NCBI GenBank assembly: GCA_029959645.1
Contig: JASCOJ010000009.1
Span: 1 to 41,183 of the forward strand
From: Microbacteriaceae bacterium PS02332
GTDB taxonomy: Bacteria > Actinomycetota > Actinomycetes > Actinomycetales > Microbacteriaceae
DNA length: 41,183 nt
Direction: 5' to 3'
Positions 29,419 through 35,455 of this stretch are shown here, one piece after another (position 1 is the first letter of the stretch; every line of letters begins with the position of its first letter). The notes under the pieces are model-generated. The model saw only the letters and a list, made by a program, of their open reading frames with translations, did no database searches and had not been told where the DNA came from. A program made the position numbers and the translations under genes.

Positions 29419-29452
29419 CCTGCGGGTGCACGACCGGGAAGGACCGCACCGC

Positions 29453-31225
29453 GTGACCAAGACGATCCGCAACCGCCGGCTGCGCTACAGCGTGGTCATG
29501 ATCGCCGTGATCGCACTCGTCGCGGTCTTCGTCGTCCGACTGGTCGACATCCAGGTCGTCCAGGCGGACGAGCTCACCACGGCCGCCGAGCAGAAGCGCA
29601 GCATCCCGGTGACGCTGTACGGCACCCGCGGCGCGATCGAGGACCGGAACGGCGTCGCCCTCGCGGACAGCGTCACCCGCTACAACATCGTGACCGCCCC
29701 GAAGCTCGTGGCGGGGTACCAGGGCACCCTCGGCGGGACCCGTCTGAAGAAGATCTCGGTCGACCAGGCCCTCGCCGCGGTCGCCGCCGCCTCCGGTGGG
29801 GACGCCGCCGCGATGCGCAAGACCATCGACGACGACCCGAAGTCGAACTACGCGTACCTCGTCAAGGGGCTCGACGTCGCGCACTACGAGGCCGTCCTCG
29901 CGCTCAAGGTGCCGTGGCTCTACCCCGAGCGCCAGGCGGCGCGGACCTACCCGACCGCGGCGGCCACCGGCAACCTCACCGGGTTCATGGGCACCGACGG
30001 TGCGCAGGCGGGCCTCGAACTGGCGTACGACAAGTGCCTGGCCGGGAAGAACGGCTCGGAGACGTACGAGCGCGGTGAGGACGGCGTGCAGCTCCCGGGC
30101 AGCACCGTGACGAAGACCCGCGCGAAGGACGGCGGGACGCTGAAGACCACCATCGACAGCGACCTGCAGTACATGGCGGTGCAGGACATCGCGTCGGCCG
30201 CGCAGGAGATCGGTGCCGTGTCGGCCACCGCCACCGTGACGCGGGCGAAGACGGGGGAGGTGCTGGCGGTCGCGGACTACCCGACCGTCGACCCGAACGA
30301 CGTCGACGCCACCACCGACAAGGGCGCGTACGGCTCCCGGGCGCTCACCGACACGTACGAGCCCGGGTCGACGATCAAGGCGGCGATCGCGGCGGCGCTC
30401 ATCGACCAGGGCAAGGCGAGCCCGACCACCCGGGCCACGGTGCCGTACTCGCGCACCTTCCCCTGGGGCGGGCAGATCCAGGACGCCGAGTACCACCCGA
30501 CCGAGCAGCTCACGCTCACCGGCATCCTCCGTGACTCGTCGAACGTCGGCATCACCGAGCTCGGGGAGTCGCTGACGGCGCAGCAGCGCTACGACTACAT
30601 GCGCAAGTTCGGCCTGTTCGAACCGCAGTCGGGCATCACCTACGGCGGGCAGCCCGCGATGGACTACCCGGCCTCGCCGCAGTGGGAGTCCCAGACGAAC
30701 ATCAACTCGATGTTCGGGCAGGGCATCTCGACCACCGCGATGCAGGTCGCGAGCATCTACCAGACGCTCGCGAACGGCGGCGTCCGCATCCCGCTGCACT
30801 TCGTACAGGGCTGCGAGCTCCCCGACGGCACGACGGTCGACGCGCCCGAGGTCACCGGCCAGCGCGTCGTCTCCACTGCGGCGGCGAACGACGTCGTCAA
30901 GATGCTGCAGAGCGTCGTCAAGGGCGGCACGCTCGTCGGCATGAAGCCGATCTCGGGCTACAACGTCGCGGCGAAGACCGGCACGGCCGAGGTCGCTGAC
31001 CCGGGCAAGGGCTACGGCTCGGACCGGATCATCTCGGTGGCCGGAATGGCACCCGCCGAGGACCCCCAGTATGTTGTCACGGTGACGTTCACGAAGCCGG
31101 GGCCGGGACACAAGTTCTCCAGCTCCGCCGCTCCGGCGTTCCGTACCCTGATGTCCCAGGTGCTCGAGAAGTACCGTGTCGCCCCCTCCACGTCCGAGGC
31201 ATCGCTCTACCCGTCCACGTGGTGA
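29453..31225 (+). CDS. ftsI: septal penicillin-binding protein (class B transpeptidase, PBP2B/FtsI)
   Basis: A 590-residue class B PBP that cross-links septal peptidoglycan with FtsW. The short cytoplasmic tail and one membrane helix (about 11-34) precede the pedestal domain (TRGAIEDRNGVALA) and the transpeptidase: STIK with nucleophile S306 and K309, SSN at 362-364, KTG at 508-510. There is no PASTA domain at the C-terminus. GTG 29453 is chosen over GTG 29426 because GGGAAGGA lies 9 bases before it. The murE start codons overlap or closely follow its stop. Confidence 0.96.
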   Translation: MTKTIRNRRLRYSVVMIAVIALVAVFVVRLVDIQVVQADELTTAAEQKRSIPVTLYGTRGAIEDRNGVALADSVTRYNIVTAPKLVAGYQGTLGGTRLKKISVDQALAAVAAASGGDAAAMRKTIDDDPKSNYAYLVKGLDVAHYEAVLALKVPWLYPERQAARTYPTAAATGNLTGFMGTDGAQAGLELAYDKCLAGKNGSETYERGEDGVQLPGSTVTKTRAKDGGTLKTTIDSDLQYMAVQDIASAAQEIGAVSATATVTRAKTGEVLAVADYPTVDPNDVDATTDKGAYGSRALTDTYEPGSTIKAAIAAALIDQGKASPTTRATVPYSRTFPWGGQIQDAEYHPTEQLTLTGILRDSSNVGITELGESLTAQQRYDYMRKFGLFEPQSGITYGGQPAMDYPASPQWESQTNINSMFGQGISTTAMQVASIYQTLANGGVRIPLHFVQGCELPDGTTVDAPEVTGQRVVSTAAANDVVKMLQSVVKGGTLVGMKPISGYNVAAKTGTAEVADPGKGYGSDRIISVAGMAPAEDPQYVVTVTFTKPGPGHKFSSSAAPAFRTLMSQVLEKYRVAPSTSEASLYPSTW

Positions 31226-31239
31226 GGAAGAAGGAACAC

Positions 31240-32862
31240 TTGTCCGCACGGATCCCTCCGGTCCTCCGACCCGAACACCCCTCGCCCCGTCCGGTCGCCG
31301 AACTCGCCAACGGCTTCGGCCTGCGCGTGGTCGGCTCCCTCGACGGCGTCGAGACGACCGGAGTCACCCTGAGCGCCGCCGAGGTGCAGCCGGGCGACCT
31401 GTTCGTCGGCGTGCACGGCGCCCACCGTCACGGAGCCCAGTTCGCCGCGGACGCGGCCGAGCGCGGCGCCGTCGCGGTGCTGACCGACGCGGACGGCATC
31501 GCCCTCGCCGAGCCCTCCGGCCTGCCCGTGCTCGTGGTCGACGACCCGCGGGCCGCGCTCGGCGACGTCTCCGCCTGGGTCTACCGGACGGACCCCGACG
31601 AAGCCGAGATCCCGCAGCTCTTCGCCGTCACCGGCACGAACGGCAAGACGAGCACCTCGTACATCCTCGAGGGGATCCTCAAGCAGCTCGGGCTCGTCAC
31701 CGGCCTCAGCTCGACGGCCGAGCGGCACATCGGGTCGCTCAGCGTCACGAGCCGGCTCACCACGCCCGAGGCCAGCGAGATGCACGCCCTCCTCGCCCGG
31801 ATGCGCGAGAGCGAGGTGCGCGCGGTCGCCGTCGAGGTGAGCGCGCAGGCCCTCAGCCGGCACCGCGTCGACGGCATCGTGTTCGACGTCGTGGCCTTCA
31901 CGAACCTGAGCCACGACCACCTCGACGACTACGCCGACATGGAGGAGTACTACCAGGCGAAGCTCCCGCTGTTCCAACCGGAGCACGGCCGTCGCGGCGT
32001 CGTCTCGCTCGACACCGAGTGGGGCCAGCGCGTCGTGCAGGACTCCCGCATCCCGGTGACGACGATCACGGTGCACCCCGAGATCGAGGCCGAGTGGCAC
32101 GTCGAGATCGTCGATGCCCAGGCCGCCTACACGGAGTTCCGCCTGACCGGTCCCGAGGGCCGCGAGCTCACCACCCGCGTGCCCCTCATCGGCTGGCACA
32201 TGGCCGCCAACGCCGCGCTCGCGATCGTGATGCTGGTCGAGGGCGGCTTCGAGCTCGGCGCCGTCGCGCACGCACTCGGGAGCGACCACCGCCGGTACGC
32301 CGACGAGACCGACGGCCATACGGTCAGCGCCATCGAGTGCTACCTGCCCGGACGCACCGAGCGCGTGTCCGGCGACCGTGGGCCGAGCGTCTACGTCGAC
32401 TTCGGCCACAGCCCGGACGCCTTCGTCAACACCCTGGCGGCCGTCCGGCAGTTCACGCGCGGCAAGGTCCTCATGCTGTTCGGCGCCGACGGCGACCGCG
32501 ACACCACGAAGCGTGCCGACATGGCCCGCGTCGCCGCCGAGGGCTCGGACATCCTCGTGGTGACCGACCACCACCCGCGCTTCGAGGACGCCGCCTCGAT
32601 CCGGAAGACCCTCGTCGACGCGGCGCGCGCTGCGCTCCCGGACCACGAGATCCACGAGGTGAGCCCGCCCGAGGCCGCCATCCGCGCCGCCGTCGCGCTC
32701 GTCGGTGAGGGCGACTCGATCCTCTGGGCCGGCCCCGGTCACCAGGACTACCGGGACATCCAGGGTGTCCGCACGCCGTACTCGGCGCGTGACGAAGCCC
32801 GCGCCGCGCTGCGCGAGGCCGGCTGGGAACCCGCCACCGGCACCGCGGGGGACGTCGCATGA
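31240..32862 (+). CDS. murE: UDP-MurNAc-tripeptide ligase MurE with atypical third-residue specificity motif
   Basis: Adds the third amino acid of the peptidoglycan stem to UDP-MurNAc-dipeptide. The ATP loop TGTNGKTST lies at about 131-139, the carbamylated-Lys segment YYQAKLPLF has K241, and FGADGDRDTTKRADM is typical. The specificity motif, DNPR in diaminopimelate-adding MurE, is HHPR (444-447, bases 32569-32580), and GKGHE is GPGHQ (498-502). Residues that grip the distal end of diaminopimelate are thus changed, so another residue (for example L-homoserine, known at position 3 of some group B walls) may be used. TTG 31240 is chosen as start because AAGGA is just upstream; GTG 31219 or 31222 overlaps the ftsI stop and would add 6-7 residues. 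Confidence 0.95.
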   Translation: MSARIPPVLRPEHPSPRPVAELANGFGLRVVGSLDGVETTGVTLSAAEVQPGDLFVGVHGAHRHGAQFAADAAERGAVAVLTDADGIALAEPSGLPVLVVDDPRAALGDVSAWVYRTDPDEAEIPQLFAVTGTNGKTSTSYILEGILKQLGLVTGLSSTAERHIGSLSVTSRLTTPEASEMHALLARMRESEVRAVAVEVSAQALSRHRVDGIVFDVVAFTNLSHDHLDDYADMEEYYQAKLPLFQPEHGRRGVVSLDTEWGQRVVQDSRIPVTTITVHPEIEAEWHVEIVDAQAAYTEFRLTGPEGRELTTRVPLIGWHMAANAALAIVMLVEGGFELGAVAHALGSDHRRYADETDGHTVSAIECYLPGRTERVSGDRGPSVYVDFGHSPDAFVNTLAAVRQFTRGKVLMLFGADGDRDTTKRADMARVAAEGSDILVVTDHHPRFEDAASIRKTLVDAARAALPDHEIHEVSPPEAAIRAAVALVGEGDSILWAGPGHQDYRDIQGVRTPYSARDEARAALREAGWEPATGTAGDVA

Positions 32863-34355
32863 TCGCGCTGACCCTCGCCGAGATCGCCACCGCGGTCGAC
32901 GGCGAGCTCGTCGCCGGGGACGCCGCGACGGTCGTCGACGGCTCTGTCGAGACCGACTCGCGGCTGGTCCGCCCCGGCAGTGTGTTCTTCGCCCTGCTCG
33001 GTGACGCGACCGACGGCCACCGCTTCGTGCCGGACGTCGCCGGCGCCGGTGCCGCGCTCGTGGTGACCGAGCGCCGCGTCGACCTGCCCGAGGGCAGCGC
33101 GACCGCGCAGATCGTCGTCGCCGACGGCTACCGTGCCCTGGCCGACCTCGCGCACGACGTCGTCGCCCGCGTCCGGGCCGGCAGTGCCGACCGGGAGGGC
33201 GGTCCGCTGCGTGTCGTCGGCATCACCGGTTCGAACGGCAAGACCAGCACGAAGAACATGCTGCGGACGATCCTGGCCGGCGTCGGCGAGACGGTCGCCC
33301 CCGAGGGCTCGTTCAACAACCACGTCGGTGCGCCGATCTCGATGCTCCGGATCACGCACGACACCCGGTTCCTCGTGGTGGAGATGGGCGCGAGCGGCAT
33401 CGGGCACATCGCCTCGCTCGTCCGCATCGCCGAGCCCGACGTCGGCGTCGTCCTCAAGGTGGGCCTCGCGCACGCCGGCGAGTTCGGCGGCATCGAGGCG
33501 ACCGAGCGCGCGAAGTCGGAGATGGTCACCGACCTCCCGGCGACCGCCACGGCCCTCCTCAACGTCGACGACGACCGGGTCGCGCGGATGCGCGAGCGCA
33601 CCGCCGCCCGGGTCGTCGGCTTCGGCACCTCGGCCGGGGCGGACTACCGCCTCAGCGACGTGACCACCGACCGTGCGGGCACGCGCTTCACGCTCACCGC
33701 GCCTCCCGTCGGCGACGACGAGCGCGACGACGCCGGTTCGCCCGGTGACGGGTCGGGAGGCTCGTCCACCGACCTCGAGACCGTCGACGTCCGCCTCGCC
33801 ATCCTCGGCGAGCACCACGCGATGAACGCCGCCGCGGCGCTCACCGTCGCGCACCGCTGGGGCGTCCCGCTCGCCGCGGGCGCCGAGGCGCTCGCGACGA
33901 TGACCCGCGCCGAGCGCTGGCGCATGGAGCTCCTGCAGGGCCCCGACGGCGTGACCGTCATCAACGACGCCTACAACGCCTCACCGGACTCGATGGCGGC
34001 CGCCCTCCGCACGCTCGCGCAGGTCGCACGCCCGGGGGAACGGACCGTCGCGGTGCTCGGCGAGATGGCCGAGCTCGGCGAGTTCTCCGTCGAGGAGCAC
34101 GACCGGATCGGGCGCCAGGTCGTCCGGCTCGGCATCGGTCAGCTCGTCGTCGTCGGTGCGGGCGCCGCGCCGATCCACCAGGCCGCGACGCTCGAGGGCT
34201 CGTGGGACGGGGAGTCCGTGTACATCGAGGACGTCGACGACGCCGTCCGTGCCCTCCAGGAGATCGTGCGTCCCGGTGACGTCGTCCTGGTCAAGTCGTC
34301 GAAGTCGGCCGGGCTGCGCTTCCTCGGCGACCGCCTCGGAGGTGTCCTCGGATGA
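32859..34355 (+). CDS. murF: UDP-MurNAc-tripeptide:D-Ala-D-Ala ligase
   Basis: A 498-residue ligase that adds D-Ala-D-Ala to complete UDP-MurNAc-pentapeptide. N-terminal UDP-MurNAc-peptide domain with [17 protein letters not shown] loop [11 protein letters not shown] (121-131); [13 protein letters not shown] and the [11 protein letters not shown] strand; [11 protein letters not shown] in the C-terminal domain. A hydrophilic Asp/Gly/Ser-rich stretch at about 283-306 ([20 protein letters not shown]) looks like a disordered loop insertion. The ATG overlaps the murE stop (ATGA), and its own stop overlaps mraY in the same way, so translation is coupled. Confidence 0.97.
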
Positions 34356-35455
34356 TCGCGCTCCTCGTCGCCGGCGCTGTGTCGCTGGTGTTCACACTGC
34401 TGCTCACGCCGCTGTTCATCCGGCTCTTCCACCGCCTCGGGTGGGGCCAGTTCATCCGTGACGACGGCCCGAAGTCGCACCACACGAAGCGCGGCACCGC
34501 GACCATGGGTGGCATCGTGCTCATCCTCGGCGCGGTCATCGGGTACTTCGTCGGGCACCTCGTCGGGCGGGACTCGGTCACGCTCTCCGGCCTGCTCGTG
34601 CTGTTCCTCATGGTCGGGCTCGGCTTCGTCGGCTTCATCGACGACTTCCTCAAGGTCCGGCGTCAGCGGAGCCTCGGGCTCGGCGGCTGGGCCAAGGTGC
34701 TCGGCCAGGTGATCGTCGGCGTCGTCTTCGCGACGATCGCACTCGTGGTGCCCACCTCGAGCGGCAAGCCCCCGGCGTCGACCATGGTGTCCGCGATCCG
34801 GGACATCCCGTGGCTCGACTTCATGGCACTCGGCACCGTGATCGGCACCGTGCTGTTCCTCGCGTGGATCGTGCTGCTCACCGTCTCGACCTCGAACGGC
34901 GTGAACGTGGCGGACGGCCTCGACGGCCTGGCCACCGGGTCGAGCATCCTCGCGATCGGCTCGTACGTCATCATCGGCTTCTGGCAGTCGAACCAGGCCT
35001 GTGGCGGGGCGCGGATCGACAGCGACACGGCCCACGCCTGCTACACCGTCACGAACCCGCTCGACCTCGCGGTCGTCGCGGCGGCCGTCTGCGGTGGCCT
35101 CATCGGCTTCCTCTGGTACAACACGTCGCCGGCGCAGATCTTCCTCGGCGACACCGGTTCGCTCGGCCTCGGCGGCGCCCTCGCCGGGCTGGCGATCCTG
35201 AGCCGGACCGAGCTGCTGCTCATCCTCATCGGTGGGCTCTTCTTCATCGTGACCGGCTCGGTCATCCTGCAGCGGGCGTACTTCAAGATCACGCACGGCA
35301 AGCGCATCTTCCGGATGAGCCCCCTGCACCACCACTTCGAGCTCAAGGGCTGGGCCGAGGTGACCGTCGTCGTCCGGTTCTGGATCATCGCGGGGCTCTG
35401 CGTCGCGGCCGGGGTCGGGCTGTTCTACCTGGAATGGATCGCACGAGTCCAATGA
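34352..35455 (+). CDS. mraY: phospho-N-acetylmuramoyl-pentapeptide transferase
   Basis: A 367-residue integral membrane enzyme with about ten helices that transfers phospho-MurNAc-pentapeptide to undecaprenyl phosphate, making lipid I. Catalytic motifs: FIDDFLKV (D97, D98), [10 protein letters not shown] (185-194), [12 protein letters not shown] (D267) and HHHFELKGW (326-334). A periplasmic loop with two cysteines in [14 protein letters not shown] (about 217-230) could hold a disulfide. The start overlaps the murF stop (ATGA), and its stop overlaps murD the same way. Confidence 0.98.

Follow-up and report, generated by a model that had tools for sequence, protein, structure and literature searches.

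The murE gene of a Curtobacterium strain encodes a housekeeping MurE that, to judge from its sequence, most likely adds L-homoserine as the third residue of the wall peptide, by means of a predicted pocket in which His, His and Gln leave no acid in place. The gene lies in a window of 41,183 nucleotides, the term being used here for the whole stretch of DNA that was analysed, and the genus of its source is Curtobacterium, in agreement with the Curtobacterium-type placement suggested in the preliminary description of this DNA. The genus is identified by two MurE copies whose positions are the same in Curtobacterium sp. ISL-83 and in another genome of the source's genus. The two altered motifs, HHPR and GPGHQ, define a conserved class and are not specific to one strain. 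DHHPR with GPGHQD was found in all 30 distinct Curtobacterium main copies that were read (31 rows with one duplicate, from a set of 67 genomes), and this agreement shows that the motifs are no sequence slip.

The window murE and its substrate pocket

In the window murE is placed between an ftsI-type gene and murF, in a dcw cluster with the following features.

29426..31225, + strand: ftsI-type penicillin-binding protein gene, upstream of murE (open reading frame, assigned by sequence and place)
31240..32862, + strand: murE, UDP-MurNAc-dipeptide position-3 amino-acid ligase, 540 amino acids from TTG
31630..31650, + strand: intact ATP-binding loop TGTNGKT, residues 131-137 (T131-T137 invariant in alignment A2, n = 36 sequences)
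31960..31962, + strand: codon of Lys241 (K241 invariant in alignment A2, n = 36 sequences)
32569..32580, + strand: HHPR replacing DNPR, residues 444-447 (alignment with E. coli MurE)
32731..32745, + strand: GPGHQ replacing GKGHE, residues 498-502 (alignment with E. coli MurE)
32859..34355, + strand: murF, downstream of murE with a 4-base overlap (open reading frame, assigned by sequence and place)
34352..35455, + strand: mraY, the next gene of the cluster (open reading frame, assigned by sequence and place)

The start of murE is either the TTG at 31240 or a GTG at 31219, with the stop at 32862, and a ribosome-binding-like stretch, GAAGAAGGA, is found at 31227-31235, just 5' of the TTG. In other genomes the relative recovered with the ftsI query adjoins murE or murF, and that recovered with the murF query precedes mraY. 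The product of the window gene is a MurE by family model, fold, TGTxGKT loop and invariant lysine. It scores 340.7 bits against TIGR01085, the MurE subfamily model (cut-off 257.3; profile positions 3-471 of 472), and has the three-domain fold of the Mur ligases, with MurE enzymes as its best structural matches. Lys241 is presumably the lysine that is carbamylated in this family. A carbamylated lysine is mentioned for the S. aureus enzyme (PMC3829189).

Pocket positions were read by aligning the protein to E. coli K-12 MurE (NC_000913.3), for which the numbering of the file runs one above the published numbering. Window residues H444, H445, R447, P499 and Q502 align with E. coli D413, N414, R416, K465 and E468, the codon for Gln502 occupying 32743-32745 in TTG-start numbering, and R389, the arginine of GDRD in E. 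coli numbering, is kept. The alignment bears out the replacements of DNPR by HHPR and of GKGHE by GPGHQ proposed in the preliminary description, whose numbering of His444-His445 and Gln502 matches murE as read from the TTG start; the Arg of DNPR, said there to be kept, is present as R447 opposite R416. The two residues with which the S. aureus enzyme holds a distal amine have both given way, in the predicted pocket, to residues that bear no negative charge.

The window protein differs from each of the known enzymes to which it can be compared. Mycobacterial and E. coli MurE (meso-DAP, EC 6.3.2.13; PDB 2xja, 8g6p and 1e8c), with 37% and 28% identity over aligned residues, respectively, have D413, N414, K465 and E468 where the window protein has H, H, P and Q, and meso-DAP enzymes are recognized by DNPR together with the glutamate of GKGHE, in place of which HHPR and GPGHQ are found here. 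In the S. aureus L-lysine enzyme (PDB 4c12; PMC3829189) D, N and E are kept and Ala takes the place of Arg (DNPA), whereas the window protein shows the reverse, with His, Gln and a retained Arg at positions where L-lysine enzymes have Asp, Glu and no Arg at the fourth motif position. The earlier remark that lysine enzymes differ from this pocket was therefore correct, and the His-His/Gln (HH/Q) arrangement is unlike both textbook classes. Closer, at 58-67% identity, is an aromatic/Glu class found in Cryobacterium, Agromyces and Herbiconiux, which shares the GPGH loop, the Pro in place of Lys465 and HPR. It differs at the first His, where Phe is present (Tyr in other members of the class), in having Glu instead of Gln, and usually in having Tyr where the window protein has Trp before AGPG.

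In the mechanism proposed, MurE would extend UDP-MurNAc-(Gly or L-Ala)-D-Glu by the third residue. The distal ammonium is held in meso-DAP and lysine enzymes by D413 and E468 (E. coli numbering), and their replacement by His and Gln would leave a pocket without negative charge for an amine. The His, His and Gln side chains could instead offer hydrogen bonds to a short uncharged side chain bearing a hydroxyl group. In the aromatic/Glu class (Phe/Tyr-His/Asn) the one retained acid, Glu, may hold the gamma-amino group of L-diaminobutyrate (DAB). We infer from the sequence that the lost acids have a role in the choice of homoserine. The main MurE is present in all 67 Curtobacterium genomes and is the sole MurE at E <= 1e-40 in 44 of them, and so should supply position 3; a needed enzyme whose pocket offers an amine no anion can be expected to accept a residue with an uncharged side chain. 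Given that Curtobacterium walls have homoserine at position 3, homoserine is then the obvious candidate. In S. aureus MurE, Asp-406 and Glu-460 are reported to bind the lysine amine, with very weak activity in the E460A mutant and none in N407A (PMC3829189).

Distribution and descent of the pocket classes

Within a family sample of 120 genomes, 116 had a MurE match at E <= 1e-40, at 128 places, and 111 of these were read. DHHPR with GPGHQ accounted for 40 and D[F/Y][H/N]PR with GPGHE for 32, the remaining 39 being small groups or broken; the small groups included HHPR or HHSR with GLAGK or GLASQ (seven) and DDDVH with GKGHE (five). The pocket is not special to Curtobacterium: DHHPR with GPGHQ is the commonest MurE class in the sample read and occurs also in Microbacterium, Rhodoluna and Salinibacterium. 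At L077, L082, L089, L097 and L090-L092, where HHPR or HHSR accompanies GLAGK or GLASQ, the changes extend to the GPGH loop itself. Two genomes of one genus, G045 and G116, have three MurE copies each, in three pocket classes (L054, L056, L064, L065, L086 and L096).

Over all family rows, without second readings (n = 264), 120 combine His with Gln and 92 an aromatic residue (Phe/Tyr) with Glu, and one is mixed. The remaining 51 show different residues, for example HH together with Leu, Thr or Lys at position 468. The first-His/aromatic position and the Gln/Glu position are concordant in 212 of the 213 unthinned rows with those letters; the mixed row, L100, has Phe with Gln in a degenerate second copy that lacks the Arg. 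A MurE tree was built from 163 thinned rows with the motif columns removed, 127 of which were scored (His, Phe or Tyr at 413 and Gln or Glu at 468) and 36 of which had other letters. Broken or partial rows (L107, L116, L276 and L338), aberrant or long-branch rows (L100, L106, L112, L113 and L115), repeat readings of one locus or genome, the near-duplicate L010 and non-family rows had been dropped beforehand, and Curtobacterium, its second copies, Microbacterium, Cryobacterium and Agromyces had been thinned. The scored rows comprise 73 with His and Gln (three of them HHSR with GLASQ), 54 with an aromatic residue and Glu, and none that is mixed. A third position goes with these two: Trp stands two residues ahead of the loop's first Gly in all 73 Gln rows and in 2 of 54 Glu rows.

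The pocket positions change only three times on this tree (independent-pairs test, two pairs, p = 0.5), so that phylogeny could carry much of their co-variation, the link being mostly one old split. One of the rows inside the HH/Q clade, L040, reads Tyr-Gln with Glu and differs at all three positions. In an FtsI tree of 81 rows, from which Microbacterium and five HH/Q Agromyces are absent because their loci, with 1.5-kb flanks, contain no ftsI, the aromatic/Glu genera again group together, which indicates that class largely follows lineage.

Among 39 Microbacterium genomes 34 are HH/Q, two are Gln-His/Gln, two have only lysine-like genes (DNPA or DNPY with GKG[D/H]E) and one is split and was left unread; one of the 34 HH/Q genomes also has a DNPA gene. 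Lysine-like MurE (DNPA/DNPY with GKGDE/GKGHE; L277, L278 and L279) is thus present in 3 of the 39, with D, N and E kept, and these genes fit the lysine-type walls known in the genus. All 31 Cryobacterium genomes are Phe-His/Glu, seven of them with a second, HH/Q copy (L339-L345). The 31 Agromyces genomes include 25 that are Phe-His/Glu, five that are HH/Q and one that is split and unread. In the five HH/Q Agromyces (L360, L362, L363, L364 and L367) the dcw cluster runs from ftsI straight to murF and mraY, no murE lying between them, and the HH/Q murE is located elsewhere; the same arrangement is found in the four Microbacterium examined (L365, L366, L368 and L369); in the one Phe-His/Glu Agromyces examined murE adjoins murF. 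At L364 the murE query re-finds only murF, at 26% identity. It appears that in Agromyces one MurE class replaced the other, and in Microbacterium murE has been moved or replaced. Such a pattern would be the expected look of a change of third residue, without proving one. At L333, as judged by eye, an HH/Q murE lies beside apparent tuf and ribosomal-protein genes.

A second MurE, at 48-51% identity, is present in 23 of the 67 Curtobacterium genomes, that of the source among them, and reads HHPR with GPGLT in 13 of 13 genomes read from these 23 carriers. The second copy of the source genome, located outside the window (L008:7665-9281, on contig C255 of G000), has 51% identity and the same HHPR and GPGLT. 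By eye, no gene order is common to L008 and the second-copy loci L355 and L356, which are alike.

Wall chemistry and the choice of the third residue

A scan of genome contigs gave at least 80 loci, at least eight of which are titled with a Microbacteriaceae genus; a search of plasmids for MurE of named Microbacteriaceae gave 40 records, none of the family by name. Among the matches listed, HH/Q is represented by Curtobacterium sp. ISL-83, Microbacterium sp. SD291, a Salinibacterium bin and a Rhodoluna bin, Phe-His/Glu by Agromyces sp. Root81, Cryobacterium shii and Herbiconiux oxytropis, and Tyr-Asn/Glu by Zimmermannella alba. These eight genera make up the comparison with wall type, outside of which lie L125 (an Actinobacteria bin with Tyr-His/Glu) and Clavibacter, Rathayibacter and Leifsonia, DAB genera that may lie near Curtobacterium. 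For Rhodoluna and Salinibacterium, whose loci are metagenome bins, the wall compared is that of the genus. The walls of Agromyces, Herbiconiux and Zimmermannella contain DAB. Published descriptions report homoserine in the wall of Rhodoluna lacicola, of type B2beta with a D-Dab bridge (PMC4156110), DAB in Cryobacterium, of type B2gamma, and Lys and Orn in Salinibacterium (PMC7033078, Table 3), both DAB and ornithine in one Cryobacterium species (PMC12113805), and D-Orn, L-Lys or DAB, by species, in Microbacterium (PMC10757982). HH/Q versus aromatic/Glu corresponds to homoserine or non-DAB versus DAB in four against four genera among the matches listed, a genus-level agreement that is suggestive only. 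Within Agromyces, described as a DAB-walled genus, 5 of 30 loci read are HH/Q; these five may combine homoserine with a bridge of D-DAB, or may be exceptions to a link between motif and wall type.

One competing explanation is that the pocket is a marker of lineage, belonging to a loose ligase for which the cytoplasmic pool, and not H444, H445 and Q502, sets the short residue. The small number of changes on the MurE tree and the grouping of the aromatic/Glu genera in the FtsI tree are in keeping with it, as is R416, which is kept in both classes, homoserine and DAB both being without a second carboxylate. For S. aureus MurE, moreover, the authors credit the size of the lysine pool, not the specificity of the enzyme, for selectivity, and the A409R mutant gave no DAP activity (PMC3829189). 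We nevertheless consider this explanation rather unlikely, because two positions distant in sequence are concordant in 127 of 127 tree rows, and all but once in the unthinned rows, because L040, deep in the HH/Q clade, has turned to Tyr-Gln with Glu, and because seven Cryobacterium genomes retain a copy of each class, for which there would be no need if the enzyme were loose.

Addition of a diamino acid (L-DAB, L-ornithine or L-lysine), as by other ligases of group B or group A4, would accord with DAB being a common wall diamino acid in the Microbacteriaceae and with the D-ornithine of the Curtobacterium wall bridge, but is very improbable given that both of the acids that bind a side-chain amine are absent. 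Glu is retained in the named DAB genera among the matches listed, and D, N and E in the three lysine-like genes of Microbacterium. The Arg kept by the window protein is absent from the lysine enzyme of S. aureus. An ordinary meso-DAP ligase with a tolerated change of motif is scarcely credible: the best NCBIfam models for the window protein are indeed those of 2,6-diaminopimelate ligase, but it falls below their equivalog cut-offs (e.g. 414.5 of 476 bits), three of the four DAP-binding positions are altered, and the group B walls of the Microbacteriaceae are not known to contain DAP. DNPR is, furthermore, described as conserved among experimentally authenticated MurEs (PMC3681970).

If homoserine is the residue added, the activity itself is probably not new. 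Wyke and Perkins are said to have reported in 1975 that extracts of 'Corynebacterium' poinsettiae (now Curtobacterium) added L-homoserine, with no gene or sequence assigned, and the activity seen in those extracts, from this very genus, was probably the one proposed here. The earlier statement that no matching MurE had been characterized must be qualified to this extent. No paper on a homoserine-adding MurE gene, pocket or class was recognized, by title or passages, in the open-licence literature searched. A plant MurE has been assayed with L-homoserine among alternative substrates (PMC12681378). What would be new is the gene-level assignment and the pocket.

The third residues named for MurE are DAP, lysine, ornithine, lanthionine, diaminobutyrate and homoserine (PMC3681970), among which homoserine is unusual in having no second ionic group; no cross-link through a side-chain amine is possible with it, in keeping with the different way in which group B walls are cross-linked. 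With a sequence rule for homoserine MurE, genomes would reveal wall type in a family whose classification relies on wall chemistry, and the MurE classes would be a natural set of enzymes for the study of amino-acid choice, a question left partly open by the S. aureus structure (PMC3829189). The pocket makes an old question on the unusual walls of Curtobacterium directly testable.

A broader proposal, on which we are evenly divided, is that interchangeable MurE modules with a pocket code at 413, 414 and 468 set position 3 of the wall in Microbacteriaceae and have been exchanged from genome to genome, the resident gene of the dcw cluster being lost. If this were true, His-His/Gln would denote homoserine, aromatic-His or aromatic-Asn with Glu diaminobutyrate, and Asp-Asn/Glu lysine, with further codes beyond these; some genomes would carry two or three modules, and the HHPR and GPGLT copy of Curtobacterium would be a module for another residue or condition.

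As a marker of DAB walls, dat (TIGR00709) and ectB (TIGR02407) were tried and rejected. Both match the same 21 of the 120 family genomes, with both MurE classes represented, and matches confined to these 21 do not explain the synthesis of wall DAB in the DAB-walled members; we take the genes to be of the ectoine type.
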